NCBI GenBank assembly: GCA_012026795.1
Contig: VEPM01000034.1
Coordinates: forward strand, 1-46,985
DNA length: 46,985 bases
From: Candidatus Methanoperedens sp.
GTDB lineage: Archaea > Halobacteriota > Methanosarcinia > Methanosarcinales > Methanoperedenaceae
Direction: 5' to 3'
The position numbers and the translations under genes were made by a program. Each line of letters opens with the position of its first letter. Position 1 is the first letter of the stretch. The notes beneath the pieces are model-generated. The model saw only the letters and a list, made by a program, of their open reading frames with translations. It had not been told where the DNA came from and ran no database searches. Shown here one piece after another: positions 8,171 to 45,652 of the stretch.

Positions 8171-9412
8171 TTGGAATATAATGTAATTAAACACCTAAAA
8201 TCTTATTGGGACAAAATCAAATTCATCGGCTTGACCGATAGAGATGAAGAAGAATTCGTTGATGCGACTTCGCAGAATAGTGTTCGAGCATCTAAATTTC
8301 TAAAAGAGCTTAATCTTGACCCGATAATGCCTGAACTCAACAAATATTATTCAGTCAAAGAAGGGGAAGAGAAGTATCCGAGAAGAGCTATGTTCAAGAC
8401 AATGGTCTGGAGGAAGACCAAGAACATCAAGTACTATACAAGGACCGAAAATCATCTTAACAATCATTCTGATGAGGCTATAGAGCTTGGTTTTAATATC
8501 GACCAGAATGGGAATGTTATAATTCCCGACCATGAAACATTAAGGCATTTTGAAAAAATAAGATTGGGTAATGAAGGAATGGATTCAATAATGGAACTCT
8601 TTTGCATCAAGGTTGTTGGTACAGGAGATAAACTTGGATTAAAAATTGGTGAAAAAACTGGAACGGATAGTACACCAATTCAAGTTCCTAATGATACTAT
8701 CGGAGAATATAATGGATATTATAAGAAAAAGATGGTGAAAACACATATAACCGAGGATTATGACCACAATATCCCTCTGGCTAAAAAGGTGTGTGGAGGC
8801 ACTGACAATGATAACCAATATTTAGAAAGCATGCTCAGGAATACATCTGTTTCAGCTGGAAAGAATATGCGAGAGACGTGGTTTGATGGCGGTTATAATG
8901 GGAATGAAAATATTGCATTAGCCCATGTCGAATTTGGTTTGATATGCCACTATCATATAGACATGGATTGGCGAAGAAACGTTATGTACGAGCATAAATT
9001 CGGTGGAAAAACCTATACCTATACACCAGAACAAGAGATAAATTACCTGTATCGAAAGTACTGGAATGAACTTGATTACAAGAAAGATTCTTCACTTGAA
9101 GATATGATGCAATATCTTGTTAAGAAGGGAATTCATGATCCTGTTGCTATGTATTTTAGGAGTCCATACGTGCAGAAATATGAAGAATGCCCGGATGCTG
9201 TGCTTGATTTGTACCATATGAGAAACCACAGCGAGGGGGTAAACAGTTATATGAAACTCAATCTTGGATTAGAGACGCATATAAATGGGAAAGGCATAAA
9301 GAATATCGACCTTCATGTAACGCAATGCTGTATAGTTCTACTTGCAGTAGCTTTGATAAGATTGCAGCATGGGATAAAAGAAAATCTTTCTTCAGTTGCC
9401 TATTTGACATAA
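8171..9412 (+). CDS. DDE transposase (IS4/IS5-like superfamily)
   Basis: 413 aa with the expected acidic triad: D166 in GTDSTPIQ, D239 in WFDGGYNGNEN, and E355 in RNHSEGVNSYMK. The N-terminal third is an all-helical DNA-binding region with YPRRAMFKTMVWRKTK. It catalyses cut-and-paste movement of its own element. I cannot fix the IS family by eye; IS4, IS5 and IS1182 groups are possible. The only start supported in frame is TTG at 8171, 8 bp after a G-rich site held in a hairpin. The frame is open throughout, so it may be active. Confidence 0.85.
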   Translation: MEYNVIKHLKSYWDKIKFIGLTDRDEEEFVDATSQNSVRASKFLKELNLDPIMPELNKYYSVKEGEEKYPRRAMFKTMVWRKTKNIKYYTRTENHLNNHSDEAIELGFNIDQNGNVIIPDHETLRHFEKIRLGNEGMDSIMELFCIKVVGTGDKLGLKIGEKTGTDSTPIQVPNDTIGEYNGYYKKKMVKTHITEDYDHNIPLAKKVCGGTDNDNQYLESMLRNTSVSAGKNMRETWFDGGYNGNENIALAHVEFGLICHYHIDMDWRRNVMYEHKFGGKTYTYTPEQEINYLYRKYWNELDYKKDSSLEDMMQYLVKKGIHDPVAMYFRSPYVQKYEECPDAVLDLYHMRNHSEGVNSYMKLNLGLETHINGKGIKNIDLHVTQCCIVLLAVALIRLQHGIKENLSSVAYLT

Positions 9413-18497: not shown

Positions 18498-19643
18498 ATG
18501 CTGGGTATGATGAGCCCACCCCTTGTATCGATTATAATCCCATGTATGAACGAGGAAAAGACCATAGGAGTGTGCATAAAGAAAGCATGGTTAGCATTGA
18601 AAAAAGAGGGTTGGGACGGGGAAATAATTATCCCGGATAATTCCAAAGATAATTCCAGGGATATAGCAAGAAAGCTTGGAGCAAAGATCGTAATACCGAA
18701 CAATAAAGGATATGGAAATGCTTTCCTTGAAGGGTTCTGGCATGCAAAAGGAAAATACATCGTGCTTGCGGATGCAGATGACACCTATGACCTTTCTGAA
18801 CTGGCAAAGTTCCTGAAACCTTTAATGTCAAATGATGCGGATTTTGTAATGGGCACAAGATTTAAAGGCCAGATCAAAAAAGGTTCTATGCCATGGCTTC
18901 ACAGATACATTGGAAATCCAGTATTAACAGGCATTCTTAATGAACTTTTTAAAACAAATCTCAGCGATTCCCATTGCGGCATGAGGTCAATAAAAAGAGA
19001 AGCGTATGATCTGCTTGATCTTAAAAGTGAAGGGATGGAATTTGCAAGTGAAATGATAATAGAAGCTGCCAGGAAAAAGTTACGAATAACCGAGGTACCT
19101 ATTACATATTATCCGAGGCTGACACCCTCCAAACTCCACTCATGGGGAGACGGATGGCGCCATTTAAGGTTCATGATGCTTTACAATCCTACGCCATTTT
19201 TTTCGATCCCGGGTTTCTTGATATTGATCCTTGGAATATTTATGACAGTGACCCTATCAATTCGCGGGAATGTTGAAACAACAAGCCTGCATTCTTTTAT
19301 ACTTGGTTCGATGCTGCTACTCATCGGTACCCAGATGATAGCCACCGGTGGCTACATGAAAGTTTATGGGATTGTTCATAACAGGATCGACAAAACCGGA
19401 TTGACCGCTAAAATACTGGATTACCATTCCCTGGAATTAGGACTATTATTTGGAATTGTATTATTTTTTGCAGGCCTTGTCCAGGGTTCGGGTGTGGTCT
19501 TGAAATGGATAGGATCGGGATATGGTTCACTTTCAGAAGTTGGGACTGCAGTGACATCAATGACAATGGCAGCGCTTGGGATCCAGGTCATATTTTCGGC
19601 ACTAATTATAAGTATATTTATTCTTGAAGATAAGGAAAAATAG
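18498..19643 (+). CDS. GT2 polyprenyl-phosphate-sugar synthase-like membrane protein
   Basis: 381 aa. The N-terminal GT-A domain (VSIIIPCMNEEKTIG, then LADADDTYD with D92-x-D94) resembles dolichol-phosphate mannose/glucose synthases, and SHCGMRSI is a typical later motif. Four hydrophobic segments occupy residues about 215-380. Such enzymes make lipid-linked sugars at the inner membrane face for later transfer outside. It opens the glycan locus, divergent from the sulfur-relay operon. The donor sugar cannot be told from sequence. An in-frame second ATG lies 9 bp downstream. Confidence 0.85.
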   Translation: MLGMMSPPLVSIIIPCMNEEKTIGVCIKKAWLALKKEGWDGEIIIPDNSKDNSRDIARKLGAKIVIPNNKGYGNAFLEGFWHAKGKYIVLADADDTYDLSELAKFLKPLMSNDADFVMGTRFKGQIKKGSMPWLHRYIGNPVLTGILNELFKTNLSDSHCGMRSIKREAYDLLDLKSEGMEFASEMIIEAARKKLRITEVPITYYPRLTPSKLHSWGDGWRHLRFMMLYNPTPFFSIPGFLILILGIFMTVTLSIRGNVETTSLHSFILGSMLLLIGTQMIATGGYMKVYGIVHNRIDKTGLTAKILDYHSLELGLLFGIVLFFAGLVQGSGVVLKWIGSGYGSLSEVGTAVTSMTMAALGIQVIFSALIISIFILEDKEK

Positions 19644-19651
19644 TATAATTT

Positions 19652-20548
19652 ATGGAAAATATAAAATTATCAGTTGTCATACTTACAAAAAACAATGGTA
19701 CAACGATCGGAAAAGTCCTGCAACAGGTTCAGGCGCAACAAATCCGTAATGATTATGAGATTATTGTGGTTGATTCGGGGTCAAGCGATGATACGATACG
19801 GAAGGTATCCGGATTTAATGTAAGATTTTATACCATACCACCTGGTGAATTCGGACATGGCAGGACCCGGAACCTTGCATCCGGATATGCTACAGGAGAT
19901 TATATTGTGTATCTTTCTGCGGATGCGATACCTGCAAATGAGAATTGGCTTAAAAATCTCGTAGATAGGCTTGCCATTGAAAATGTTGCAGCGACCTTTG
20001 GAAGACAGATCCCTTATGAAAATACACCACTTATGGAACGATTTTTCATTCAGAGGAATTATCCGCCTATTTTAAATGAACCATACTCGGTAAAAGATTT
20101 CAACATGAATGCATTTTTCTCAAATGTAAATTCCGCGATCAAGCGCTCAGTATGGAAAAATACAAAATTTAACGAGGAACTCATCATTAGCGAAGATCAT
20201 GACTGGGCCAGAAAAGCAAACGAACTTGGATACAAAATAGAGTATGTCCCGGATGCAGCTGTGTTCCATTCTCATAATTACGGCTTAAAACAGGTATTTA
20301 AAAGATATTTTGATTCAGGGGTATCATTTTCCCAGATGTATATGAAACCGGCAGTTCTGAGTAATGGAATCAAATATTTTATAGCTGAAATAATATATGT
20401 GGGACGGGAAAATTTCATCAAAATCCCGTATGCAATATGCTACGACATCTTTAAATTCACCGGATTTTTTTTTGGGTTGCATCATAAATGGATACCCGGA
20501 TCAATTAAGAGGCATTTGAGCATGCATGCATATTACTGGAAAAAATAA
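19652..20548 (+). CDS. GT2 glycosyltransferase, rhamnosyltransferase-like
   Basis: 298 aa. GT-A fold with LSVVILTKNNGTTIGKVL at the start, IIVVDSGSSDDT, the FGHGRTRNL segment common in rhamnosyl- and related transferases, a LSADAIP metal-site stretch, and SEDHDWARKA as the catalytic-base region. The C terminus (KRYFDSGVSFSQMYM) is typical of rhamnosyltransferase-like proteins. It lies 8 bp after the polyprenyl-type enzyme, same transcript. A nearby full dTDP-rhamnose pathway makes rhamnose a reasonable donor, but this is inference. Confidence 0.82.
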   Translation: MENIKLSVVILTKNNGTTIGKVLQQVQAQQIRNDYEIIVVDSGSSDDTIRKVSGFNVRFYTIPPGEFGHGRTRNLASGYATGDYIVYLSADAIPANENWLKNLVDRLAIENVAATFGRQIPYENTPLMERFFIQRNYPPILNEPYSVKDFNMNAFFSNVNSAIKRSVWKNTKFNEELIISEDHDWARKANELGYKIEYVPDAAVFHSHNYGLKQVFKRYFDSGVSFSQMYMKPAVLSNGIKYFIAEIIYVGRENFIKIPYAICYDIFKFTGFFFGLHHKWIPGSIKRHLSMHAYYWKK

Positions 20549-20556
20549 ATAAAATA

Positions 20557-21585
20557 TCATATTCTCTCATGGCTTTTTATTATCCATCGATTGAGCCTGG
20601 AGAAATCCGCACCTTTTGATCGTAATTTCATTCGCTGGTTCAACATATGGGGAAGTTTTTCATATGCTGACAATTTTGCGCGTAATACAGCAAATAAAAC
20701 CGATCTGAAACTGTAATTTAAAACCGGTTCTTCCTTTTCGGGAGTAATTCCAAAGAATGTTTTTATGAATAACATTATATATCTAAAATAATGGATGTTC
20801 GTGAACGGGAGTTGAACAATAAGTACCTGAACAGGAAAATATTTCCACATATTCCAGAGCTTGTTCCTTTCGATAAAAAATATTTTGAACGGTGATGAAC
20901 TTTTGGCTGTTGCAGAATGCATATGATATACAATAGCATCAGGCGCGAAAATGCATTTCCAGCCAAAAAGATGCATCCTGAAAGATAGATCCACATCCTC
21001 AAAATATGCAAAATACTCTTTATCAAAGAGACCTATTTCATCAAGCATTTCCCTGCGATATATGGCCGCTCCTGCGCAGGAACCGAAGATTTCCTCCATT
21101 TTATCATACTGTCCTGTATCTTTTTCTTCTCTCCCCCTGTCGTATGCATTTCCGTTCTGGTAAATAACGATGCCTGCCGAATCAATTATGTTCCGGTCAT
21201 AGTACCGCATCATCTTGGATGCGCAACACCCGATACCGGGATCGGATTCTATAACCCTCACAAGATTATTTACCCAGTTTTCATCTGCCTGGGCATCATT
21301 GTTTATGGTGGCTATGAATTCCCCCTTTGAAATCCTGATGCCGCTGTTCACGCCTTCCGCAAAGCCAAGATTAGTAGTATGTCCTGAAATAACGATACCT
21401 GGAAATTTATTTCTTACAAAATCAATTGAACCATCAGAAGAACCATTATCTACAAATATGATCTCGATATTTTTGTAGGTTTGTCTTACCAGTGATGAAA
21501 GGCATGTCTCAAGGTACTGTTTTCCATTCCAGTTGAGAACGATTATGGAAACAGTTCCGGTGACAGTTCGTTTGAGGAGCATCAA
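20557..21585 (-). CDS. GT2 glycosyltransferase, WbbL-like
   Basis: 342 aa. It begins with VSIIVLNWNGKQYLETCLSS, then IIFVDNGSSDGS, INNDAQADENW (metal-binding region) and YFAYFEDVDLSFRM (catalytic base region), the pattern of rhamnosyltransferases of the WbbL type. The C-terminal third is helical and basic. It is on the minus strand, convergent with the previous gene (8 bp apart). Start could be either of the first two ATG codons. Product linkage is unknown. Confidence 0.85.
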   Translation of the reverse strand: MMLLKRTVTGTVSIIVLNWNGKQYLETCLSSLVRQTYKNIEIIFVDNGSSDGSIDFVRNKFPGIVISGHTTNLGFAEGVNSGIRISKGEFIATINNDAQADENWVNNLVRVIESDPGIGCCASKMMRYYDRNIIDSAGIVIYQNGNAYDRGREEKDTGQYDKMEEIFGSCAGAAIYRREMLDEIGLFDKEYFAYFEDVDLSFRMHLFGWKCIFAPDAIVYHMHSATAKSSSPFKIFFIERNKLWNMWKYFPVQVLIVQLPFTNIHYFRYIMLFIKTFFGITPEKEEPVLNYSFRSVLFAVLRAKLSAYEKLPHMLNQRMKLRSKGADFSRLNRWIIKSHERI

Positions 21586-21696: not shown

Positions 21697-22170
21697 ATGA
21701 AAAATATTGACGGCGTAGTCATAAAAAACCTGAAAGTCGTTCCTGATGAGCGGGGCTGGCTTATGGAAATCCTGCGATGCGATGATAAGATATTTACCAA
21801 ATTCGGGCAGGTTTATATTACAACTGCTTATCCCGGAGTCGTAAAAGGCTGGCATTATCACAAGAAGCAGACTGATAATTTCACATGTGTACATGGCATG
21901 ATGAAAGTCGTCCTGTATGATGGTAGGGAAGAGTCACCAACTTATAAGAATTTGATGGAATTGTTCGCGGGTGAAAAAAACCCGATACTGATCAGTGTTC
22001 CTCCTGGTGTATATCACGGGTTCAAAGCCGTAGGTACGGAGACGGCATATTTCCTGAGTATTCCCACCCTGCCTTATAATTATGAAGAACCTGATGAATA
22101 CAGATTGTCTCCGGATTCTAAGGAAATACCATACGATTGGGGACTTGCACCCGGATTAAAGCACGGTTGA
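21697..22170 (+). CDS. rfbC: dTDP-4-dehydrorhamnose 3,5-epimerase-like cupin
   Basis: 157 aa, shorter than classical RmlC (about 180-190). Cupin with the KGWHYHKKQTDNF stretch, whose first histidine matches the catalytic RGLHxQ site of RmlC, and HGMMKVVLYDGREES and VPPGVYHGFKAV as in the family. It epimerises dTDP-4-keto-6-deoxyglucose at C3 and C5. First gene of a tight four-gene operon with the other dTDP-rhamnose enzymes, which supports the assignment despite the short length. Confidence 0.85.
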   Translation: MKNIDGVVIKNLKVVPDERGWLMEILRCDDKIFTKFGQVYITTAYPGVVKGWHYHKKQTDNFTCVHGMMKVVLYDGREESPTYKNLMELFAGEKNPILISVPPGVYHGFKAVGTETAYFLSIPTLPYNYEEPDEYRLSPDSKEIPYDWGLAPGLKHG

Positions 22171-22183
22171 ATTGGTGAAAAAA

Positions 22184-23140
22184 TTGAAATTACTTATAAC
22201 AGGCGGTCTTGGTTTTATCGGAAGCAACTTTATCCGGCACATGCTTGTAAAATATCCCGGTTACGAGATTATAAATCTTGATAAGCAAACGTATGCAGGA
22301 AATCCTGATAATCTCAAAGATATTGAAAAAAACCCGAACTATACGTTCATCCGCGGTGATATCTGCGATTCAAAAGTAGTGAATAAGCTCATGGAAAAAG
22401 TTGACCATGTAGTACATTTCGCTGCTGAGAGCCATGTTGACCGCTCGATCGAAGATGCATCAGTTTTTGTTAAAACCAATGTCCTTGGCACATTTACGCT
22501 TCTTGATGCCGCATTAAGACACAATATACGGAAATTTATTCATATCTCTACTGACGAGGTATACGGAAGCATAATCCGCGGATCGTTTGTGGAAACTGAC
22601 ATCCTGACTCCTTCAAGTCCTTATTCTTCAAGTAAGGCAGGTTCTGATCTTTTAGCCCGATCTTACTTTATCACTCATAAGCTGCCTGTGGTCATTACCA
22701 GGTGCACCAACAATTTCGGACCATACCAGTATCCTGAGAAGCTTATACCCCTGTTTATAACGAATTTGCTTGAAAACCAAAAAGTTCCGGTCTATGGGAC
22801 AGGAAAAAACGTGCGCGACTGGATATATGTTCTTGATCACTGCAAGGCAGTTGATTTTATACTTCACAAAGGCAGTATAGGGGAGATATACAATATTGGC
22901 GGCGGGGCCGAAAAAACAAATATTGAGATCACAACAAAGATTCTCAAGATGCTAAAAGCTGATGAATCCATGATCGAATATGTTAAAGACCGGCCCGGAC
23001 ATGACCTTCGGTATTCGCTTGATTGTTCAAAACTTACGTTGCTCGGATGGGAGCCTGAGCATGACTTTGATGACGCCCTGGAGCATACTGTAAAATGGTA
23101 CATCGAAAATCGCTGGTGGTGGGAAAAATTAAAACGATGA
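22184..23140 (+). CDS. rfbB: dTDP-glucose 4,6-dehydratase
   Basis: 318 aa, short-chain dehydrogenase fold. The NAD site is GGLGFIG (7-13), and the catalytic residues appear as T123-D124-E125 in STDEVYG and Y147-x3-K151 in YSSSK. NFGPYQYPEKLIPLFI and RDWIYVLDHC are classic RmlB signatures. I use the TTG at 22184 because GGTGA (22174-22178) sits 5 bp upstream and the product then begins (M)KLLITGGLGFIGSNF, as in relatives. GTG 22175 and TTG 22172 are alternatives. It makes dTDP-4-keto-6-deoxyglucose. Confidence 0.94.
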   Translation: MKLLITGGLGFIGSNFIRHMLVKYPGYEIINLDKQTYAGNPDNLKDIEKNPNYTFIRGDICDSKVVNKLMEKVDHVVHFAAESHVDRSIEDASVFVKTNVLGTFTLLDAALRHNIRKFIHISTDEVYGSIIRGSFVETDILTPSSPYSSSKAGSDLLARSYFITHKLPVVITRCTNNFGPYQYPEKLIPLFITNLLENQKVPVYGTGKNVRDWIYVLDHCKAVDFILHKGSIGEIYNIGGGAEKTNIEITTKILKMLKADESMIEYVKDRPGHDLRYSLDCSKLTLLGWEPEHDFDDALEHTVKWYIENRWWWEKLKR

Positions 23141-23934
23141 TCTTTGGCGCTGGCGGGATGCTTGGTATGGAACTGTGCCAGGTATTTCCTGACGCTGTGA
23201 AACTCAAGCATAGCGATATTGATATACGTGATAAAGATATGGTCATTGAATCCATCTCAAGGACTGAACCTGATGTTGTTATCAATGCTGCCGCATATAC
23301 TGCCGTGGATGACTGCGAAGATAATCAGGACCTGGCTTTTGAGGTAAATGGCAAAGCTCCGGGATATATAGCGCAGGGTTGCTCTATCACTGGTGCAAGA
23401 CTCATTCATTACAGTACGGATTATATATTTGACGGCTCTAAAAAGCAGTATATAGAAACCGATGCATCCAATCCGATCAACGTCTATGGTCATTCCAAGC
23501 TTATGGGTGAAAAAAATATAATTGAAAAAACGGATGATTTCAGGATCATAAGGACATCGTGGCTTTTCGGGCTACATGGTAAGAATTTTGTTGATACTAT
23601 GCTAAAACTGTCCGGACAGGTGGATACAGTAAAAGTAGTAAATGACCAGTTCGGTAAACCAACGTATGCGGCTGACCTTGCCAGGAAAACCGAAGAGATC
23701 ATCGGACATCCGCCCGGAATTTACCATATAACAAACGAAGGCGTGTGTTCCTGGTATGAATTCGCATCTGCGATAATAACAAATGTCAAGCCGTGCAGCA
23801 GCAATGAATTCCCGCGTAAGGCCAGGCGTCCGCAATATTCGGTCCTTGTGAACACAAAAACAACTCCGATGCGCCACTGGAGAGATGCGCTTGCTGATTA
23901 TTTAAATAAGCGAAAAAATTTTGAGGTAACATGA
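23137..23934 (+). CDS. rfbD: dTDP-4-dehydrorhamnose reductase
   Basis: 265 aa. NADPH site GAGGMLG (4-10), NAAAYTAVDDCE (50-61), YSTDYIFDG (92-100) and the catalytic pair Y117-x3-K121 in VYGHSKLMGE define RmlD. It reduces the 4-keto group to give dTDP-L-rhamnose. The ATG at 23137 overlaps the rfbB stop codon as ATGA, so I prefer it over longer starts inside rfbB. It in turn overlaps rfbA in the same way. Confidence 0.93.
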   Translation: MIFGAGGMLGMELCQVFPDAVKLKHSDIDIRDKDMVIESISRTEPDVVINAAAYTAVDDCEDNQDLAFEVNGKAPGYIAQGCSITGARLIHYSTDYIFDGSKKQYIETDASNPINVYGHSKLMGEKNIIEKTDDFRIIRTSWLFGLHGKNFVDTMLKLSGQVDTVKVVNDQFGKPTYAADLARKTEEIIGHPPGIYHITNEGVCSWYEFASAIITNVKPCSSNEFPRKARRPQYSVLVNTKTTPMRHWRDALADYLNKRKNFEVT

Positions 23935-24644
23935 AAGGAATAATACTTGCAGGAGGAACAGGCTCCCGCCTGTATCCATTAACCAAGATCACGAATAAAC
24001 ATCTGCTTCCTGTGTATGATAAGCCTATGATATATTATCCACTGCAAACACTTATCGATGCGGGGATAAAGGAGATAATGATCGTCTCCGGCCGGGGTCA
24101 TGCAGGTCATTTTCTTGAACTCCTGGGATCGGGAACCGAATTTGGAGTGCATCTTACTTATGAAATACAGGAAGAAGCGGGAGGAATCGCACAGGCCCTT
24201 GGCCTTGCGCAGGATTTTGCGGATGATGAACCCGTAACGGTAATCCTTGGTGATAATATATTCCAGGATAATGTGAATGAAGCAGTTTCCTCATTCAGGT
24301 CAGGCTCCATGATATTTATTAAGGAAGTGCCCGATGCAAACCGGTTTGGCGTTGCCCGGATCAAAGGAAAAAGCATTATATCGATTGAAGAAAAACCGGC
24401 TGTTCCCAGGTCGAATCTGGCAGTTACAGGATTATATATTTATGATGCAAGTGTTTTTAATATTATCCGGACACTTCGGCCTTCGGGAAGGGGAGAGCTT
24501 GAGATCACGGATGTAAATAATGAATATATCCGGCAGGGTAAAATGAGTTATTCTGTTCTCTCCGGATTCTGGAGCGATGCGGGAACGTTTGAGTCATTGT
24601 TCAGGGCAAGTGAACTGGTACGGAATATGAGAATAGCTGAATAG
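23931..24644 (+). CDS. rfbA: Glucose-1-phosphate thymidylyltransferase, short form
   Basis: 237 aa. The nucleotide-binding start GIILAGGTGSRLYPLTKITN, KHLLPVYDKPMIYYPL, the LGDNIF metal site and IEEKP follow RmlA closely. Classical RmlA has about 290 residues; the missing C-terminal part includes the secondary, allosteric region, so feedback by dTDP-rhamnose may be weaker (inference). ATGA overlap with rfbD. It makes dTDP-glucose, the entry to the rhamnose pathway, and closes the operon. Confidence 0.92.
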   Translation: MKGIILAGGTGSRLYPLTKITNKHLLPVYDKPMIYYPLQTLIDAGIKEIMIVSGRGHAGHFLELLGSGTEFGVHLTYEIQEEAGGIAQALGLAQDFADDEPVTVILGDNIFQDNVNEAVSSFRSGSMIFIKEVPDANRFGVARIKGKSIISIEEKPAVPRSNLAVTGLYIYDASVFNIIRTLRPSGRGELEITDVNNEYIRQGKMSYSVLSGFWSDAGTFESLFRASELVRNMRIAE

Positions 24645-24708
24645 AAAATATTATATATAATAATAAAATTTTATACCTACAGTGGGGACATGATCTTTTC
24701 AGCAATAC

Positions 24709-24758
24709 TGCGCCGGGGTGCGACCCCAGACCCCACGCGGTCGCGCCGCCGATGGCGG
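24709..24758. other. GC-rich palindromic island
   Basis: About 50 bp of very GC-rich sequence in AT-rich surroundings. It contains GGGGT-GCG-ACCCC (24715-24727) and CCGCC-GAT-GGCGG (24746-24758), both perfect 5-bp palindromes. It lies between the end of rfbA and the broken wzm copy. A remnant of a repeat or an insertion scar are possibilities. Confidence 0.4.
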
Positions 24759-24765
24759 ATATACC

Positions 24766-25110
24766 ATGAAATCAAAGGTTGTTTACTCTCGAATATATGG
24801 TGTTGATTACAAGATTTTAGATTATAAAGAGTTGATAAAAAACCTTGTGATAAGCAACCTCAAAACGAAATACTCCAGTTCATTTATCGGATTTGCCTGG
24901 TCAATGCTGAATCCCCTGATGATGATGCTCGTACTGTATTTTGTATTTAACAATGTCTTTAAATCCACACAGGAGCATTTTGCTCTTTTATTTATTAATC
25001 GGCCTGATTGGCTGGCGGTTTTTTGCACTGGGAACCACATGGCCATGTCCTCTATCGTAGGAAAAGCAATTTTGTCACCAAGATCGGATACCCCGCGAGA
25101 TACTAAATCC
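24766..25110 (+). pseudogene. Truncated, frameshifted 5' copy of the wzm permease gene
   Basis: From ATG 24766 the frame reads MKSKVVYSRIYGVDYKILDY and then follows the intact permease at 27060 closely (KNLVIS.LK.KYSSS.IGFAW, NNVFKSTQEHFA). By eye about nine in ten bases match over 24838-24984. After STQEHFA one base is inserted relative to the intact gene, and a second compensating indel follows near 25038. The alignment stops around 25104, at the equivalent of GAGATATTGA in the intact gene. Only about the first 100 of 253 codons remain, so no working permease can be made. The break coincides with the stop codon of the neighbouring minus-strand glycosyltransferase. Confidence 0.85.
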
Positions 25111-26914
25111 TAATTGAAAAATCCTCCTTGATCAATGTTAGATTAGGATTATAATATGGATCTCCTTTATCAATAACACTACCCCATTTTTCTCTCATGT
25201 ATGAATATTCTTTTAAAAACCTCTTCATCTTTTCAGGAGTATTTTCATATCCTCTGCTCAATGATTCATGGTGATACAGTTCCGCATAAGGGGTATAGGT
25301 TATGAGATATCCTTTTTCCCTTATCTTTAAACAGAGATCAACGTCATTAAAAGCAACTTCAATGTTTTCATCAAATCCTCCGACCTCATAAAATACTTTT
25401 TTCCTTATTAAGACGCATGCTGCCGTCACTGCACTGAGATTATGGATAACATGAGGTCCCTTAAAATACACCATATAAATATTTGATAAATGTTTATAAG
25501 AATGACCTGCGATGCCCGGTTGTTCAGGCCTCCCTCTTATCCCCAAGATAACTCCAGCATGTTGTATCGTTCCGTTAGGATAAAGCAACTTGCAGCCTAC
25601 AGCTCCTACTTCCGGGCGCTGCGCGTGCTCAAGTATGGCTGATAACCAGTCCTCATTTATCACTTCCGTGTCGTTGTTCAAGAACAAAAGGTATTCACCG
25701 TTTGATCTTTGAGCTGCAAAATTATTAATAGCTGAAAAATTAAATGGTTGATCATATTTTAGAACAGTGATGCCTGGTGATCCACTTATCGATTCCAGAT
25801 ATCTAAGCGTACGACTGTCATTGCTATAATTATCGATAATTATTATTTCATAATTTTTATAAGTGGTTTTCTTTCTGATGCTTTCTATACATTTTTTCAA
25901 TGTTTTAAGCTTATTCTTAGTTGGTATGATTACGCTGACCAATGGTTCCCCAATTATATCTCTCTTGATCCTGAAAAAACCAGGAAATCTTCCGGGCAAA
26001 ACCTTCCCACTTATTTTTCTCCGGTCTATAGCCTCCTCAAGCGCTTTATATGCTGAGATATCTGCATAACTCTTGGACTGGTATCTCACTGATGTAGAAC
26101 CGGGGAGTTGTCTCCAATGATACAGGATCTCCGGTATATGAAAAATCTTATCCGTTTGTTCAGTAACCCTGAGAACAAGATCATAGTCCTGGCTTCCTTC
26201 GAATCCTTTTCTAAACCTTCCAATTTCATCTATCAGATTTTTTCTATAAATTCCAAAATGGCAGGTGTACATATTTGATAAAAGCAGGTCTGGAGACCAA
26301 TCAGGTTTAAAATAAGGATTAACCCTCTTATCATCTATTGTTATATTGTCCTCATCGCTGTATATCATATCAGCTTCCGGGTGTTCCTGAAGCAGTTTCA
26401 CTACTTCATACAGGGCATTGACGGAAAGTTCATCATCGTGATCTAAGAAACCAGCGAATTCTCCGGTGGCCAACGATAATGCCTCGTTTGATGCACCTGA
26501 GATTCCCTGGTTTCGGCTGAGGTATTTTACTTTTATCCTGGGGTCTTTTTCGCTGTATCTATCAAGCATTTTTTTAATATAATCACCTTTGGAAGCATCA
26601 TCTACAAGGCATAATTCCCAGTTTTCATAAACCTGATCTATTACAGAATTTATTGCTTTCTCAAGCCAGATGCCATCCACGTTATACACGGGAGTGATTA
26701 TGCTGATCTTGGGGGAATATTTGAAGTTTTTTATTTGAGCCCTCATATTACTCAAATTCTGATCTGTTATTTTATTTTGTTCCAGATAAATCTCATAGTT
26801 TGATGCCAATTTCCCGGAATATTTTAAATAGACTATCGCTTGCCGGATAAATGAACGCAAGCCTTCCTCTCTCAAAATACTACAGCTATTGTTTACTAAT
26901 TGTGTAAATGTCAT
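25103..26914 (-). CDS. Two-domain GT2 glycosyltransferase
   Basis: 603 aa with two GT-A domains in tandem. Domain 1 (about 69-300) has ISIITPVYN, the metal-binding FLDHDDE (157-162) and EGSQDYDL as the base region. Domain 2 (about 325-590) has VSVIIPTKNK, the LFLNNDTEV site (410-417) and FNDVDLCLKI. The first 65 residues are a helical lead. Such proteins may build disaccharide repeats or add two sugars in turn. Its 3' end abuts a broken wzm copy and the intact wzm lies beyond its 5' end, so the gene is bracketed by direct repeats. Complete and open. Confidence 0.88.
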   Translation of the reverse strand: MTFTQLVNNSCSILREEGLRSFIRQAIVYLKYSGKLASNYEIYLEQNKITDQNLSNMRAQIKNFKYSPKISIITPVYNVDGIWLEKAINSVIDQVYENWELCLVDDASKGDYIKKMLDRYSEKDPRIKVKYLSRNQGISGASNEALSLATGEFAGFLDHDDELSVNALYEVVKLLQEHPEADMIYSDEDNITIDDKRVNPYFKPDWSPDLLLSNMYTCHFGIYRKNLIDEIGRFRKGFEGSQDYDLVLRVTEQTDKIFHIPEILYHWRQLPGSTSVRYQSKSYADISAYKALEEAIDRRKISGKVLPGRFPGFFRIKRDIIGEPLVSVIIPTKNKLKTLKKCIESIRKKTTYKNYEIIIIDNYSNDSRTLRYLESISGSPGITVLKYDQPFNFSAINNFAAQRSNGEYLLFLNNDTEVINEDWLSAILEHAQRPEVGAVGCKLLYPNGTIQHAGVILGIRGRPEQPGIAGHSYKHLSNIYMVYFKGPHVIHNLSAVTAACVLIRKKVFYEVGGFDENIEVAFNDVDLCLKIREKGYLITYTPYAELYHHESLSRGYENTPEKMKRFLKEYSYMREKWGSVIDKGDPYYNPNLTLIKEDFSIRI

Positions 26915-27059
26915 GTTTTCTTCTTTTCATTGATCTGCTTAAATGATTTTAATAATCATGTAATTTTCCCTGATTTTTGAAAAATACGATAATTTAAGAC
27001 ATCATTATATAGAATAGAATATAACAAGAAAGCAAATTAGTGATAGGAACCATATTTAA

Positions 27060-27821
27060 ATGTACATATTTGAATATAAAGATCTAATAAAAAACCTTGT
27101 AATAAGCGACCTGAAAATGAAATACTCCAGTTCAGTTATTGGATTTGCCTGGTCAATGCTTAATCCTTTGCTGATGATGCTCGTACTGTATTTTGTTTTT
27201 AACAATGTTTTTAAATCCACACAGGAGCATTTTGCCATTTATATATTAATTGGACTCACAGGATGGAGATTTTTTACATTCGGAACAACGGGTGCTATGT
27301 ACTCTATTGTTGGAAAATCAAGTCTTGTAACCAAGATCTTTATACCACGTGAGATATTGACATTCAGTGCAGTAATATCTGTATTTATAAGCTCTCTACT
27401 CGAATTCATGGTATTGATCCCACTCATGGTTATTTTAGGAGTCAAACCTTCAATATTTATTATATTCTTCCCTGTCCTGCATATTCTATTTTTCCTTATA
27501 GTATATGGCATCGGACTGGCTATGGCATCGCTATTTGTATATTATAGAGATGTGAACCAGATATGGGATGTGCTTCTCCAGATGGGCTTTTTCCTTTCAC
27601 CGATCGTTTATCCGCTTTCCCTTATACCTGAGAAGTATATGTTTTATTATATGCTTAACCCTATAACAAGTTTAATTGAAATGTACAGGAACTTGCTTTT
27701 ATCTGGAATCCTGCCAGGACTCATGGATATTGTCCTCGTGTTAATGTTCGGGATTATCCTATTTTCACTTGGCTCATGGTTATTCAGGAAGCTTTCTCCA
27801 GGGTTTGCTGAGGAGATTTGA
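27060..27821 (+). CDS. wzm: ABC-2 type polysaccharide export permease (Wzm/TagG-like)
   Basis: 253 aa with six hydrophobic segments, the size and profile of Wzm. Family wording is clear in the first third (LVISDLKMKYSSSVIGFAWS, LNPLLMMLVLYFVFNNVF) and in the later FFLSPIVYPLSLIPEKYMFYYMLNPI. It forms the membrane channel through which a lipid-linked polysaccharide is exported. The ATPase gene starts directly at the next base after its TGA stop. A broken copy of its 5' part lies 2 kb upstream. Confidence 0.92.
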   Translation: MYIFEYKDLIKNLVISDLKMKYSSSVIGFAWSMLNPLLMMLVLYFVFNNVFKSTQEHFAIYILIGLTGWRFFTFGTTGAMYSIVGKSSLVTKIFIPREILTFSAVISVFISSLLEFMVLIPLMVILGVKPSIFIIFFPVLHILFFLIVYGIGLAMASLFVYYRDVNQIWDVLLQMGFFLSPIVYPLSLIPEKYMFYYMLNPITSLIEMYRNLLLSGILPGLMDIVLVLMFGIILFSLGSWLFRKLSPGFAEEI

Positions 27822-29129
27822 ATGTTCGAGCCACCACTGAAAAAAAAGGAAGATGGAGATGCCATAATAGTTGAAAATGTCAGAAAGCGTTTCAGGATTC
27901 CTCATGAGAAAAGAAATACTCTTTTTGAAAATATCGCTGGTGTAGTAAAGGGCAGGAAGCAGGATTATGATGAATTCTGCGCTCTCCGGGATATAAGTTT
28001 CAGGGTAAAGAAAGGGGAGAAGCTTGGAATCGTGGGTGAAAACGGAAGCGGAAAGAGTACACTCCTAAAGATCATCTCCGGTGTGTTTGTGCCTGATGCC
28101 GGGAATGTGAAAGTTTATGGCAAGGTTGCGCCGTTCCTTGAACTGGGCGTGGGTTTCCAGCCTGAACTCACAGCCGAAGAGAATGTGAGACTATATGGCG
28201 CAGTCATGGGTATGAGCAGGAAAGAGATGGAGAGCAGGTTCGAGGAGATATTTGAATTTGCCGAACTTGAGCGCTTTAAACAGATGAAGCTTAAGAATTT
28301 TTCAAGCGGGATGTATATGCGGCTTGCGTTTGCTACTGCTACTGCGACTAGCCCTGATATTTTACTGATAGACGAAGTACTGGCAGTAGGGGATGAGACT
28401 TTCCAGAGAAAATGTTTTGATAAGATCAATGAGTTCAAGATGAACGGGAAAACAATAGTTCTTGTTACGCATGATCTGGAGATGGTGAAACGGTTATGCG
28501 ATAGTGCTATTTTGCTTGATCATGGAAAGATGACTTCAATTGGGAATAGCCAGATGGTGATCGATGAGTATCACAAGAACATGCGCGAGAAAGCAGAATC
28601 AATTCTTAAGGTACAACAGAAAATAGTAATACAGCAGGAATCAACCCCTATCACTAATGAAGAATCCAGCGTTCCTGAAAAAGCTGAGCTTCCAAAAGAC
28701 AGGTGGGGAACGGGAGAAATTGAGATAACGGAAGTTAAATTCTTTGGCAGGGATAGCGAAGAGAAATATATTTTCAGAACAGGAGAAACCCTTATTGCAA
28801 AAATAAAGTATTCTGCAAAGCAAAGGATCGAAAAACCAGTTTTCGGGGTTGCGATTCACAGGAACGATGGAACCCATATAACAGGACCCAATACGAAATT
28901 CCATAATAATGTGATAGAAAGTATAGAAGGAGACGGGATAGTTGAATATATTGTGGATTCTTTGCCTTTATTAAATGGAACTTATTTGTTTACGGCTGCT
29001 GTGTATGATTTTGCATGTGTTAATGCATATGACTACCACGAAAAAAGATTTACCTTTAAAGTTGAAGATGAGAGTAAAAAAGATTATGGTATATTTTACA
29101 TTCCATGCAGGTGGAAATATGGCGAATAG
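27822..29129 (+). CDS. wzt: ABC polysaccharide export ATPase with C-terminal glycan-recognition domain (Wzt-like)
   Basis: 435 aa. Nucleotide-binding domain: Walker A GENGSGKST (72-80), signature FSSGMYMRL (160-168), Walker B LLIDEVLAV (181-189), H217. A linker of about 50 residues leads to a C-terminal beta domain (about 295-430, WGTGEIEITEVKFFGRDSEE, GVAIHRNDGTHITGPNT) like the Wzt C-terminal domain, which in bacteria binds the modified non-reducing end of the chain before export. That implies the exported chain carries a terminal modification such as methyl or phosphate; the fusion gene downstream encodes candidate enzymes. Partner of the permease upstream. Confidence 0.92.
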   Translation: MFEPPLKKKEDGDAIIVENVRKRFRIPHEKRNTLFENIAGVVKGRKQDYDEFCALRDISFRVKKGEKLGIVGENGSGKSTLLKIISGVFVPDAGNVKVYGKVAPFLELGVGFQPELTAEENVRLYGAVMGMSRKEMESRFEEIFEFAELERFKQMKLKNFSSGMYMRLAFATATATSPDILLIDEVLAVGDETFQRKCFDKINEFKMNGKTIVLVTHDLEMVKRLCDSAILLDHGKMTSIGNSQMVIDEYHKNMREKAESILKVQQKIVIQQESTPITNEESSVPEKAELPKDRWGTGEIEITEVKFFGRDSEEKYIFRTGETLIAKIKYSAKQRIEKPVFGVAIHRNDGTHITGPNTKFHNNVIESIEGDGIVEYIVDSLPLLNGTYLFTAAVYDFACVNAYDYHEKRFTFKVEDESKKDYGIFYIPCRWKYGE

Positions 29130-29204: not shown

Positions 29205-32200
29205 ATGAGACCAAAAAAGATAATCCTGATAATTATAGATTCACTAAGAAAGGATCATTTAGGCTGTTATGGTTATAAGAGAAATACAAGCCCGAATATA
29301 GATACTCTTGCAAAAAGCGGGATACTTTTTAAATATGCTTTTTCAGCATGTCCAAATACAGTTCCTTCGATAGCATCTGTCCTGACTTCAAAGTATCCGT
29401 CAAATCATTCGATGGGTTTTGATCCAGATAAAAAGCTAGATCCAGAGGTAGATACAACTTTAGCCACTGTTTTGAACGAGAATGAATACAGGACTGCCGC
29501 TTTTCTAAGTAGCAGTGGGCTTACTGGCATAAACTCAGGTTTTGATATATTCGATGAAGGAAAGGGAAAAAGAGACTGTGCAGGGACAAATGAACAGGTT
29601 TTAAAATGGCTTGATGAAAATCACATGCAGGATTTTTTCCTGTTAGTTCATTATTCTGATTTGCAAGGGCCATATTTAAATTCAGGGTCTTATAAAAATA
29701 CATTCGTAGAGGATGAATTTTATGGAAATGCTGAGCAGATAAAGAACATCTCAGACAAAGACCCCACCTTCAACAGTATTCCCCGATACCAGATACTTAA
29801 TCCTGTCACAGATGCTGATAATATTCCTGTCAGTTTTGAAAGTGATGTGAGATATTACAAAGCGCAATATGACGGATGCATACGTAACATAGATGAAAAT
29901 ATCCAAAAACTCATTGAAAAATTAAAAGTCCTCAAGATTTTTGATGACTCACTGATAATCATCACTTCAGATCACGGTGTGGCTTTTGGTGAAAATAATT
30001 TATTCTTAGATTATGGATTATCTGTGACCTTGGACCAGATAGAAGTCCCGTTGGTATTGAAATTTCATAAAGGTTGGTATATAAAGAGCGGTATCTTAGA
30101 TATTCCAGTAAGCACCCTTGATATCATGCTAACTATACTCTCTTTATGCAATAATGATCTGAGTTTCATGCTTGAGGGGTATTCTCTCAAAGAAGTCCTT
30201 GAAGGTAAAGAAGATAATATTTTGAAAGAAAGAACAATAATGAGTGAAAATGAGCGTCAATTTGCTTTAATTAGTCCAAATGGATTGATGGAGCTTAAGA
30301 AAAAAGATGTTCCAACCAGCAATTATCATCCATATTTAGCAGCTTTACTTGAATCGCTAAACGGGAAGAAATACTATTGGGATTCAGGGAATGAGTATGT
30401 GCTGGCGATCCCATTTGATCAATATCAGAGATATAAAATAATATCTGATATAATAAACAAATTCAGAACCGACAAAGAAATATTTAAAATACTTGATGTT
30501 GGAGCCGGTTTTGAAAACAATCTAAAAAAGTTTCTTCCGTATGATGAAATTTTTTTATTAGATAAAAACTATCCAAAAGAGTATAATCAAAAAAGCAACT
30601 ACATAATTGGAGACATAACAAAAATAGGGCTTAACAAAAGTTATGATTTTATTATTTCTATTGATGCTTATGAGCATATATCCCCTATTTTTCGAGAAAA
30701 GTTTATCAATAAACTTATTGATCCTTCAAAAATCGCTACAATAATAGCTGCACCATTTGATACCCCTGGGGTTAGAGAATATGAAGTTTCTGCAAATGAG
30801 GTGTATAAAATCAGCCATGGGATGGAGTATAAGTGGCTTCATGAACATATCCAGAATGGGTTACCATCTCTCCCTTTTACTCTTGAATTAATTAAAAAAT
30901 CGAAGTACTCCTATACTGTGATACCCAATGGATATTTGCTACGATGGTTTGAAATGGTCTCGACTTATATGCTTACAGAAGGTATGCCTGAATTTACAAA
31001 GAGCATGGAAGCACTTTATGAATTCTACAATAAAAATTTTTACGCTTATGATAATTTAAATCCTGCCTATCGACATGTAATTGTAGTAAATAAAAGTAAT
31101 AATGAACCTGATTTTTCTGAAATTTATGCGAAGAATATTAAAATGGATGAGAATTTTACTATTAAATATGAATCTTTGCAGTCTATTCTTAAAAAAATCA
31201 GAGAACTTTCCAGCAATCTTAGGTACAAAGAATTGCTTGAGAAAAGAAGTGAGCTTACCGAACTCACAGGTGTACTGCAAGCCAAAGAAATTGAAATTAA
31301 TGAAATGAAAAGTACATCAAATTCAAAAGATTCTTTAATAAAAGTAAAAGATAATGAAATTATAGAACTCAAAGATGCTATGAATGTGAAAGCTTCTGAA
31401 ATTATAGAACTCAATAATACCCTGCAACAGATTCATATGAGTATAACCTGGAAATCAGTAATGAAATTTCAGAAAATCATTGATTTCTTTCTTCCGAATA
31501 ATACGCGGCGACGGCATTGTTATAATCTTGGGTTAAATAGCATTAATATAGTCGTAAACGAAGGATGGAGAAGCCTATGGATTGAATTTAAGGAAAAATT
31601 AAAAGGATGGGTTCCTTTTAAACATAGGATAAAAATAAATAATGTTTTATTAAAACTGAATGATCCGACAATTGATATAATTATTCCTGTTTATAACCAT
31701 GGAAAGTATTTGCAGGAATGCATTGAAAGTGCAATCAATCAAACATATTCTAATATCAATATAATAATTGTAGACGATTATTCAAGCGAATCTTTAGTTT
31801 TTGAAGTGTTAAAAAAATACGAAACGAATCCAAAAATAAAAATAGATTACCACAAAACAAATAAAGGTATTTCCGAAACGTTAAATGATGGAATTATTAT
31901 GTCATCTGGAAATTATCTAGCATTTTTGGATTGTGATGATATAATTGTTCCCAATGCAATAGAAAAAGTGGTAGATTTCATTAAGCACAACACTGACAAA
32001 TATTTTATTTATACGGATAGAATAAATATCAACCAAAGTGGAGAAACAGTTGAATACTTAAGTTTCAAAAATCGGGGAATGAATGCCAAAACAGAATTAT
32101 TATTGGGAATGTATACCTCCCATCTGAAAGTTATCAATAGAGAATGCTTTTCGAAAGTTGGTTTATTCGCGCCTAAATATGATTCCTCGCAGGATTATGA

Positions 32201-33230
32201 TATAGCACTAAGAATCTCAGAATATTTTGATTTTGGATATATTAATGATTATTTATACAAGCATCGAGTTCATGAAGAACAGTGTACACAAAGAAACCTC
32301 ACAAAACAAGAAAATCTTGCAATATTAATTAAAGACGCTGCAATCCAGAGAAGAAAGATATTACATGGCGATATTAGAAGATCAATATCAATTGTTATGC
32401 TGACTTTTAATAGACTTTATGATACAAAAAAATCTATTGAGTCCATTTTTAATTATACAAAATTGCCATTCGAGCTAATTATATTAGATAACAATTCAGA
32501 TAGCGATGTAAGAGAATATCTGAAGAAGTTGGAAAAAAAGAAATCCAATGTAAAAATTATTTTCGAGGATACAAATTTGGGGTGTGGCAGAGGAAGAAAA
32601 AAGGCTGTTAAATTCGCTAAAGGAAATTATATAGTCACGTTAGATAATGACATCTGCGTAACTCCTCTATGGTTAGAAAATTTCATCATAAGAATAGAAG
32701 ATGATAAGAAAATTGCTGCTGCGTGCGCAAAGGTAGTTTTTCCTGACGGAAAGATCCAATATAATGGAGGAAAACTGGAAATTAAAAACGATTTTATTGA
32801 ATTTTCTTTGCTTGATTCAAATAAAAATAAAAATGATTTATCAACCTTCAGGGAATTAGATTGCGATTGGATACCCGGGGGAGCGATGATAATAAAAAGG
32901 GAATTTCTTGAAAAAGTTGAATACCGGGAGGATATTGAAGGAGCATATGAAGATAACGACTATTCGTTACAAATAAAGAATATCGGAGGACGGGTAGTTA
33001 ATTGCCCATTATCTGAAGTAGTTCATTATCATTTGTATTTTGGTAAAAATATTTCAAAAGAAAAGAGATACATGAATGAAAGGTACGCAAATAAAAAAAT
33101 GATGAATGCATTTCTTGCTTTTTATAAATATAATAAGCTTATAATTAAAGATAAAGACTTATATAAAATATTGAATATATCAGATAAATCTGATGCTGAA
33201 ATCCGCAAACTTGTAACTACTCAAGCTTAG
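29205..33230 (+). CDS. Four-module fusion: alkaline-phosphatase-superfamily + methyltransferase + coiled coil + two GT2 domains
   Basis: 1341 aa. (1) Residues 1-405: sulfatase/phosphotransferase fold, with metal ligand D12 in IILIIIDSLRKDHLG, T52 in NTVPS at the nucleophile site and D256-H257 in TSDHG. (2) About 405-625: class I SAM methyltransferase-like domain, ILDVGAGFENN (428) and ISIDAYEH. (3) About 655-725: charged coiled coil. (4) About 820-1010: GT2 with IDIIIPVYNHGKYL, FLDCDD (907) and SSQDYDIA. (5) About 1060-1300: second GT2, SIVMLTFNRLYDTKKS, LDNDI (~1145) and EDNDYSLQI. No membrane segment is evident. It starts 75 bp after wzt and may be co-transcribed. Suggested role: capping or decoration of the exported glycan, matching the Wzt recognition domain (inference). 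Confidence 0.85.
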   Translation: MRPKKIILIIIDSLRKDHLGCYGYKRNTSPNIDTLAKSGILFKYAFSACPNTVPSIASVLTSKYPSNHSMGFDPDKKLDPEVDTTLATVLNENEYRTAAFLSSSGLTGINSGFDIFDEGKGKRDCAGTNEQVLKWLDENHMQDFFLLVHYSDLQGPYLNSGSYKNTFVEDEFYGNAEQIKNISDKDPTFNSIPRYQILNPVTDADNIPVSFESDVRYYKAQYDGCIRNIDENIQKLIEKLKVLKIFDDSLIIITSDHGVAFGENNLFLDYGLSVTLDQIEVPLVLKFHKGWYIKSGILDIPVSTLDIMLTILSLCNNDLSFMLEGYSLKEVLEGKEDNILKERTIMSENERQFALISPNGLMELKKKDVPTSNYHPYLAALLESLNGKKYYWDSGNEYVLAIPFDQYQRYKIISDIINKFRTDKEIFKILDVGAGFENNLKKFLPYDEIFLLDKNYPKEYNQKSNYIIGDITKIGLNKSYDFIISIDAYEHISPIFREKFINKLIDPSKIATIIAAPFDTPGVREYEVSANEVYKISHGMEYKWLHEHIQNGLPSLPFTLELIKKSKYSYTVIPNGYLLRWFEMVSTYMLTEGMPEFTKSMEALYEFYNKNFYAYDNLNPAYRHVIVVNKSNNEPDFSEIYAKNIKMDENFTIKYESLQSILKKIRELSSNLRYKELLEKRSELTELTGVLQAKEIEINEMKSTSNSKDSLIKVKDNEIIELKDAMNVKASEIIELNNTLQQIHMSITWKSVMKFQKIIDFFLPNNTRRRHCYNLGLNSINIVVNEGWRSLWIEFKEKLKGWVPFKHRIKINNVLLKLNDPTIDIIIPVYNHGKYLQECIESAINQTYSNINIIIVDDYSSESLVFEVLKKYETNPKIKIDYHKTNKGISETLNDGIIMSSGNYLAFLDCDDIIVPNAIEKVVDFIKHNTDKYFIYTDRININQSGETVEYLSFKNRGMNAKTELLLGMYTSHLKVINRECFSKVGLFAPKYDSSQDYDIALRISEYFDFGYINDYLYKHRVHEEQCTQRNLTKQENLAILIKDAAIQRRKILHGDIRRSISIVMLTFNRLYDTKKSIESIFNYTKLPFELIILDNNSDSDVREYLKKLEKKKSNVKIIFEDTNLGCGRGRKKAVKFAKGNYIVTLDNDICVTPLWLENFIIRIEDDKKIAAACAKVVFPDGKIQYNGGKLEIKNDFIEFSLLDSNKNKNDLSTFRELDCDWIPGGAMIIKREFLEKVEYREDIEGAYEDNDYSLQIKNIGGRVVNCPLSEVVHYHLYFGKNISKEKRYMNERYANKKMMNAFLAFYKYNKLIIKDKDLYKILNISDKSDAEIRKLVTTQA

Positions 33231-44041: not shown

Positions 44042-45652
44042 TTATTTCTCCACCGGTGGAGCAATGCTATAGATATTATCTGTTGCTTGTCTTATATATC
44101 CCTGGGCTACAATTGATTGATTTGCAGATACGACCGAATATCCTGTGAAGTCACCAGGCACGACCGATGAAACAGTTACACCAGCCAGACCATATGGACC
44201 AACAGTCCCTGAATAACTACCGGCTTGAGTGCCGTTAGTGTAGTAATATCTAACATTTACACTAGCAGCCGCACTATTGGGATTAACTGCTTGTATCCCA
44301 GAGTTGTGGCTTGCGGTATTATATAAGAATGGCACATTGACATCTCCGATTGATCCGGGTTTCCTAACCTGCGGTGCAACACTGTAAACATTTGATGCAG
44401 ATGTTCTTATATATCCCTGAGCTACAACTGATTGGTTAGATATAATTTCTGAAGATCCTACGAATAACACCCCTGGAATCAAGGATGAAACTGTTGTTCC
44501 AACCAGATTCTTTGGAGGTAATATATACGTTGTATTAGCTGCCTTAGTTCCATTTACATAATATAAACTAACAGTAATCTGTGCAGGTACATTTCCTGGG
44601 TTGAATACCTGCAATCCGGAATCATAGTAATTGCCATTATAAACAAACGGGATATACGCAGTTGTTACTGTGTTGCTTAGTGCTGGTGCAATACTGTATA
44701 TGCCTGATGCCGATGTACGGATATAACCCTGAGCAGCAATAGGTAGATTAGAAGTTACCGTTGATGAACCTATAAAAAATACACCTGGCAGCAATGAAGT
44801 AATTGTCGTTGGACCTAGCTTCTTTGGATCCAATGTATAGGTAGTAGTAGCCGCCTGAGTTCCATTTATATAATATAATTTAACTGTCACAGTTGCTGTT
44901 GTATTCCCGGGGTTGATGACCTGCAATCCAGAATCATAATTTCCTCCATTATAAAGGAATGGAATAGTCACATTTGTCCCGATATCACTATCAGAGAATG
45001 ATGAGGCAAGTGAATATACGTCCTTTTGTATTGTTTTAATATATCCACCACTCTTTATTGGCAATTCAGATTTAACAATTGCAGATCCTACAAATAACGA
45101 GCCCGTTGCTCCCGTTATTTCATAAACATCTTTATTCCATAATTTTCCAGGTTGGACCATATAAACATCGTTACCTGCAACTGTTCCATTAAGGAAATAG
45201 TATGTTAATTCAACTGAAGCATTCGATGTTCCATTATTCATCAACTGAACTTTAGAATCATATACACTGCCTGTAGTTTTGTAAAGGAATGGCAGGAAAA
45301 AATGGTTTGCAGACTTCAATTGTATATCATGGAAATTCGTATTCCCCTCTGTAACATTTATACTTGTAACATTCGGAGCATACGAATCATTCCCCATTGC
45401 AACTAATGTATATTCACCGATCGGCATTTCATTGATTGCATACGATCCACCAATATCTGTCGTGTCATTATACTGCGGCCACTCCTTAATAAAGACAAAC
45501 GCCCCTGCTAATAATCCGCCGTCGGGTCCATAAACATACGCTAATGAAGACCCGGGGATCAATGCGATATACATTAATGCCAGAACTGATACAATTGCTA
45601 TTCCTGTTGCGGCCTTCTTATAACCGCTTGTAATATTTTCCAATATTTTCAT
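44042..45652 (-). CDS. Secreted surface protein with four ~105-residue repeats
   Basis: 536 aa. Signal peptide or anchor (about 13-38, ending SSLAYV), a carboxypeptidase-regulatory-like beta domain (about 39-115, GGSYAINEMPIGEYTLVAMG), then four repeats starting near 118, 228, 333 and 438. Each has the pattern (I/V/L)PF(L/V)Y..., D/NSG(L/I)Q..NP, YY.NGT, GSS..S and ends with GYIRTSASxIYSIAP. About twenty N-x-S/T sequons are spread through the repeats, suggesting heavy N-glycosylation. No C-terminal anchor is seen. GGAGAG lies 6 bp before ATG. It is next to the glycan locus and could be an envelope protein that carries or meets the glycan. Family not recognised. Confidence 0.75.
   Translation of the reverse strand: MKILENITSGYKKAATGIAIVSVLALMYIALIPGSSLAYVYGPDGGLLAGAFVFIKEWPQYNDTTDIGGSYAINEMPIGEYTLVAMGNDSYAPNVTSINVTEGNTNFHDIQLKSANHFFLPFLYKTTGSVYDSKVQLMNNGTSNASVELTYYFLNGTVAGNDVYMVQPGKLWNKDVYEITGATGSLFVGSAIVKSELPIKSGGYIKTIQKDVYSLASSFSDSDIGTNVTIPFLYNGGNYDSGLQVINPGNTTATVTVKLYYINGTQAATTTYTLDPKKLGPTTITSLLPGVFFIGSSTVTSNLPIAAQGYIRTSASGIYSIAPALSNTVTTAYIPFVYNGNYYDSGLQVFNPGNVPAQITVSLYYVNGTKAANTTYILPPKNLVGTTVSSLIPGVLFVGSSEIISNQSVVAQGYIRTSASNVYSVAPQVRKPGSIGDVNVPFLYNTASHNSGIQAVNPNSAAASVNVRYYYTNGTQAGSYSGTVGPYGLAGVTVSSVVPGDFTGYSVVSANQSIVAQGYIRQATDNIYSIAPPVEK

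Follow-up and report, generated by a model that had tools for sequence, protein, structure and literature searches.

A surface-glycan locus of probable replacement type, scarred by a wzm pseudogene, in a Candidatus Methanoperedens genome

A glycan locus in an archaeal genome carries a broken wzm gene, a glycosyltransferase (GT) gene and an intact wzm in succession, which raises the question of how two copies of an exporter gene came to lie on either side of a GT gene. The stretch of DNA analysed here (the window, 46,985 nt) is an entire contig, one of 68 in a 3.59-Mb genome. The mcrA of this genome has its best PDB matches in chains 9qr1 and 9qqt (1295 and 1249 bits, versus 895 for 1e6y), entries that we take to be from ANME-2d. 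This match and the genus set of 31 genomes fit Candidatus Methanoperedens as the host, a group apparently known mainly from metagenome assemblies. An earlier note on this DNA had proposed that the GT gene and a new wzm came in by insertion or exchange at wzm and that the old wzm stayed behind as a scar. From comparisons with related genomes we consider it probable that this surface-glycan locus is of the replacement type and keeps a pseudogene as its scar, although the course of events appears to differ from the one proposed.

Two copies of wzm and the gene between them

From left to right the locus contains GT-like genes, rfbC/B/D/A, the wzm relic, the GT gene, wzm, wzt, a sulfatase-GT gene and further glycan and membrane genes. 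Three GT-like genes, named by eye from their ORFs (18498-21585), lie left of the rfb genes, which together occupy 21697-24644. Directly after wzt is a 1341-aa protein (29205-33230) with a sulfatase domain and two GT2 stretches. A 413-aa ORF that looks transposase-like by eye (8171-9412) is located just left of the ribosomal protein genes. Large, repeat-rich ORFs resembling surface proteins (44042-46918) close the contig; five relatives each have multiple stretches related to them, and these repeats are perhaps the reason for the contig end there.

The relic is a 297-bp 5′ part of wzm on the forward strand (24808-25104, codons ~1-101), with homology starting at 24808 or 24814. In a DNA search of the genome against itself, the alignment of relic and intact wzm (27060-27821) that the earlier note had suggested gave 83% nt identity over ~290 bp (27066-27356) with an E of 2.3e-79, so the match is not due to chance. 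Nowhere else in this genome did the wzm part of the relic give a match above background. At the protein level the relic is 67% identical and aligns with wzm residues 3-99 (E 1.1e-31). The start codon is gone (TAC where others have ATG), the reading frame is disturbed by four single-nucleotide indels, and the 3′ two thirds of the gene are missing. With its homology to wzm, truncation and frameshifts the relic is classed as a wzm pseudogene and is not expected to work. A relic in the same orientation as the intact wzm and 2 kb before it, as first described, was thus confirmed, and the direct repeat 24814-24988/27066-27240 (89% identical) has a spacing of 2252 bp. Its details needed revision: of the 345 bp originally assigned to the relic, 24766-24807 is not wzm, and there are four indels rather than two. 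The stop said to follow after ~100 codons is found at 25111-25113, 115 codons into the frame of the ATG at 24766, with no internal stop before it.

Among the 31 genus genomes searched, a second, broken 5′ copy of wzm is present in this one only, while G017 and G019 carry a second wzm of a distant type. The same relic at the same site in related genomes, which the earlier note had named as evidence against its reading, was therefore seen in none of the other 30. The fragmentation of the assembly into 68 contigs could lead one to ascribe the relic to an assembly artefact or a sequencing error. However, the two copies differ by 17%, which rules out a collapsed repeat, the start codon and the last two thirds of the gene are also absent from the relic, and the left flank is collinear with two other genomes. 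We regard an artefact as very improbable.

The gene between the copies (25103-26914, reverse strand) encodes a two-domain family-2 GT of 603 aa with two PF00535 stretches, in agreement with the 1.8-kb gene on the opposite strand noted previously. All 603 residues align with homologues in G020 (68%) and G002 (61%), and the last residues match those of a G018 protein, so the gene is complete. The junction with the relic is its stop codon, TAG (25103-25105, reverse strand). Using blastn against relatives, GT homology starts at 25100-25105, while wzm homology of the relic, in matches that reach its end, stops at 25102-25112. Relic and GT gene are thus joined without a spacer, and the end of relic homology at about 25104 given in the earlier note holds.

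The intact wzm (27060-27821, forward strand; ABC-2 type permease, PF01061) adjoins wzt (27822-29129, forward strand), which encodes an ATPase with a Wzt C-terminal glycan-binding domain (PF00005 and PF14524). An ABC-2 permease gene adjoining an ATPase gene with this C-terminal domain is the arrangement of a Wzm/Wzt-type glycan ABC exporter; on these grounds the intact pair, and not the relic, is the predicted glycan exporter here. The intact wzm is closest to those of G023 (85% aa) and G011 (83% aa), and wzt to those of G011 (76%, partial) and then G020 (74%).

We also compared gene order around wzm in the relatives by tblastn, leaving out weaker overlapping matches. Thirteen relatives (G023 to G034) have a good wzm, defined as at least 64% aa identity. 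In eight of them (G002, G020, G030, G016, G021, G013, G018 and G034) wzm directly follows rfbA, starting 10-63 bp past the aligned rfbA end. It follows an rfbD-like gene in G022 and G028, lies ~16 kb from rfbA on one contig in G008, and is on a different contig from rfbA in G023 and G011. Since rfbA and wzm are adjacent in most of these relatives (8 of 13), the relic stands where wzm is normally found and the intact copy has been displaced past the GT gene; in this respect the earlier note is supported. In G028 (L093 1-625, G028:C182) wzt, next to an intact wzm, is split into a piece with codons 1-44 and a piece with codons 25-187 that lie on opposite strands, which looks like an inversion scar.

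The position and orientation of the GT gene vary within the locus, since its homologues lie downstream of wzt on the export-gene strand in G020 and G018 and downstream of wzt on the opposite strand in G002. In no searched genome does it immediately precede wzm on the opposite strand, and for the 145 bp in front of the intact wzm no relative gave a match better than shuffles. Neither result supports the claim that the GT gene was brought in together with the new wzm. By eye, the intact wzm seemed as if it might share a promoter with the stand-alone wzm genes of G023 and G011, but the local scores equalled those of shuffles (z 0.6 and -0.4); G023 and G011 share the wzm upstream region with each other (z 26). 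In G011 (L081 1-2250, G011:C325), pieces that resemble by eye the GT-like sequence at 20557-21585 flank an ATPase-like ORF just upstream of wzm, and a stretch of ~190 bp recurs at either end.

There is no transposase between the two copies, the ORFs of at least 80 aa in 24645-27059 being the relic frame and the GT gene only, and no known RNA matched 24600-27100 in Rfam at E<=1. Viral contigs contained no relative of wzm, leaving a viral vector unsupported, and a broken wzt gave a single match to them, at 33%. Between rfbA and the relic is a GC-rich (64%) dispersed repeat of ~75 bp (24706-24781, forward strand) that may have served as a recombination site. A search at E<=1e-3 located it at 8 other sites in this genome. 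Two copies in this genome flank a small PIN-type gene pair (L003; named by eye), and a copy lies ~40-55 bp after wzm in G018, G021 and G013. Copies were located at L003 1501-1576, L003 2930-3000, L084 2346-2419, L085 11098-11163 and L088 4723-4795; the window copy has no Rfam match.

The divergent block and the history of the relic

The nearest sampled species were identified by the identity of rpl1-rpl10 to this genome, which is 95% for G021, 94% for G018, 92% for G003, 88% for both G004 and G020, and 81% for G002. The genes rfbC, rfbB and rfbD (21697-23934, forward strand) form a conserved left arm. They are collinear with those of G018 and G021, where they are on the same contigs as rpl1-rpl10, and are 84-98% identical to them at the nt level per 90-bp window. 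The rfbD/rfbA boundary (23900-23960, ~23935) lies 0.9 kb before the relic; there the identity with G018 and G021 falls sharply from 94% to 82-83%, and it is 71-83% from rfbA on. The first gene of the divergent block is rfbA (23931-24644, forward strand; glucose-1-phosphate thymidylyltransferase, NTP_transferase), which is closest to G002 (91% aa) and G020 (89% aa), versus 83% aa for G018 and G021. A return of identity that would mark a right edge was not found up to the contig end: over this part, matches of at least 300 bp to G018 and G021 reach at most 73%, and among shorter matches in the repeat-rich surface genes some are 79-81%.

Up to and including rfbD the locus is therefore conserved with the sister species; from rfbA onward, as far as the contig reaches, the allele is a different one. 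The same place, a conserved flank and a different allele from rfbA on are among the features of a replacement flexible genomic island. An exchange, as suggested earlier, is borne out in that this locus and that of the nearest species have different alleles, but its visible edge lies at rfbD/rfbA and not at wzm. The allele may have changed in this genome or in the G018/G021 sisters. To the right of the edge the nearest relatives differ by gene, being G002 and G020 for rfbA, G023 and G011 for wzm, and G011 and G020 for wzt. No searched genome has anything there above ~85% aa for wzm or 91% aa for rfbA, and no near-identical island was found in a divergent genome among 60 relatives (best wzm 85% aa, best GT 71% aa). 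With no donor in the sample, an older event stays compatible with the data.

The position of the relic in the ancestral slot, with the GT gene between the copies and ending exactly at it, is what one would expect if the relic were the inherited wzm of the lineage and a single insertion or exchange at wzm had brought in the GT gene and a new wzm. The identities are difficult to reconcile with this. The relic is 81.7% identical to wzm of G020, 80% to those of G023 and G011, and only 77-78% to those of G018 and G021, whose core identity is 94-95%. Vertical inheritance predicts ~94% to the sisters, unless their wzm was replaced, and rfbA, to the left of the relic, is already divergent. The relic is thus probably not the original resident allele, and the old wzm left as a scar does not describe it well. 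A single event at an inherited wzm survives only if rfbA-wzm of the sisters were themselves replaced, and we consider it unlikely.

The substitutions suggest when the relic broke. It differs from the intact wzm at 13, 5 and 28 first, second and third codon positions, respectively, a pattern like that between two functional homologues, the intact wzm and that of G023 (10/4/37). Only five substitutions are exclusive to the relic (2/1/2). The third-position excess and the few relic-only changes indicate that the copies diverged as working alleles and that the break is recent; the comparison points to a young break after which decay of the 5′ stub has begun.

Alignments and trees of wzm covered 13 relative genomes plus L052 and L053, but not L054 or a wzm group of ~41-44% identity. 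Over its whole length the relic matches no sequence better than the intact wzm, and vice versa (83.4%; UFBoot 75), because of one tract at gene positions 61-180 (24868-24987, forward strand), where they are 91.7% identical versus 77.8% outside it. Outside this tract the relic is no closer to the intact wzm than to wzm of other species. Permutation gave p values of 0.0086 for relic and intact wzm and ~0.001 for intact wzm and G020, neither of them safe after correction for 136 pairs, and a firm claim of gene conversion was dropped; the tract is a hint of recombination inside wzm. In the phylogeny of wzm and relic, also proposed in the earlier note, the relic groups with the intact copy, but AU tests retain both of its placements.

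The mutual best match, together with the variable position and strand of the GT gene among relatives, could also be accounted for by duplication of wzm in place, if a rearrangement inside the locus moved the GT gene between the copies and one of them decayed. The 77.8% identity outside the tract is no higher than between species, the codon-position pattern is that of two functional genes, and two wzm copies of this type occur in none of the other 30 genomes of the genus. A duplication is accordingly a doubtful explanation.

Ladders of broken wzt in related genomes

In 3 of the 31 genus genomes (G013, G002 and G018), broken 5′ copies of wzt are arranged serially in one orientation (L152, G013:C154; L155 and L156, G002:C84 and C8; L098 and L084, G018:C1 and C14; L088, G013:C227). 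At E<=1e-25 and with intact genes included, wzt matches numbered 10 in G013 (two, on C19, are only 43-45% identical and maybe another wzt), 5 in G002 (one, on C36, is a full gene cut by the contig end) and 4 in G018. Elsewhere there was one match in each of 21 genomes, including this one, two in G017 and G019, and none in five. Most fragments end near codons 160-180, just past the ABC signature, and one in G018 ends at codon 138. Identity among the G018 fragments, and between them and the full gene, is 85-91%, and most of the differences are at third codon positions (e.g. 9/3/48). Of the proteins scanned from small genes between fragments, 13 of 20 match a Pfam family at E<=0.01, the families including PIN, BrnT, CopG antitoxin, AF2212-like, TumE and Fic. 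Several fragments share a motif of ~60 bp that begins where the wzt sequence breaks off. Searching with one copy gave five matches in G013 and two in G002; the remaining 29 genomes, this one included, had none, and the motif in the G018 copies was seen by alignment only.

The ladders and the window have the same topology, a broken 5′ copy, an insert and an intact copy, and by this analogy they may be linked. One could imagine a DNA circle with the GT gene and a 5′ piece of wzm that integrated by a single crossover in wzm, yielding a broken copy, the cargo and an intact copy, with relatives having repeatedly done the same at wzt with toxin-antitoxin (TA)-type cargo. The agreement in topology with G018, G013 and G002, the junction motif shared by several ladder copies and the relic-intact tract, which might mark the crossover, would be in keeping with such a cassette. 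However, no circle was seen, the window contains neither a TA module nor the ~60-bp junction motif and this genome has no wzt ladder, the crossover would have joined alleles only ~78% alike, and the GT gene ends at its own stop codon with no extra cassette sequence. We therefore give the cassette little credence for the window. It is equally speculative that exporter genes of this locus act in the genus as self-sparing landing pads, at which cassettes with a wzm or wzt 5′ fragment would integrate and leave export uninterrupted, the ladders being repeated TA-type cases and the window a single-step wzm case with GT as cargo. In the literature searched, we found no reports on Methanoperedens with toxin-antitoxin and polysaccharide, and no titles or abstract openings on ladders of broken wzm or wzt.

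Proposed course of events and comparison with known systems

The reading that we prefer, replacement of a surface-glycan allele, would comprise the following steps. Homologous exchange in the conserved rhamnose genes would have brought in a block starting with rfbA and including a wzm. Inside this first wzm, the GT gene and another wzm-wzt allele would later have been joined, or the block might have arrived already joined. The sequence of the first wzm between codon ~100 and the GT stop codon would have been lost or have never arrived, and the redundant 5′ stub would then have begun to decay. At least two layers of exchange, in either order, are implied.

The locus would preserve a recent and legible trace of one surface-glycan allele replacing another in an archaeal genus, with its edge mapped in rhamnose genes. 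If the wzt ladders with their TA-type modules are confirmed, one could test how an exporter operon takes up cassettes and stays intact, and whether a surface type is fixed with the help of addiction modules.

Recombination at rml/rfb rhamnose genes occurs at the edges of pneumococcal and other polysaccharide loci. The window is like these loci in having a breakpoint among rhamnose-precursor genes beside a variable block, and differs from them in belonging to an archaeon and in using an ABC exporter. Swaps of LPS clusters with divergent wzm/wzt have been described in Xanthomonas (PMC2585010). There, as in the window, low-identity wzm/wzt are common to otherwise different clusters at one site, while a broken wzm bracketing a glycosyltransferase is a feature of the window that the available part of that report does not describe.

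A replacement glycan island with a pseudogene scar is a kind of event that is already known. Replacement flexible genomic islands carry genes for the O-chain, S-layer and glycosylation, and one archaeon is included among the cases in the portion of the source available to us (Lopez-Perez et al. 2014, PMC4033161). Those islands and the window have in common a fixed place, a conserved flank, a sharp divergence edge and a different allele inside. As presented in that portion, they reflect the exchange of whole clusters, with nearly identical clusters in two strains, whereas in the window no donor is seen and one edge is visible. The window differs from them further in that an exporter-gene scar and a displaced second copy remain.
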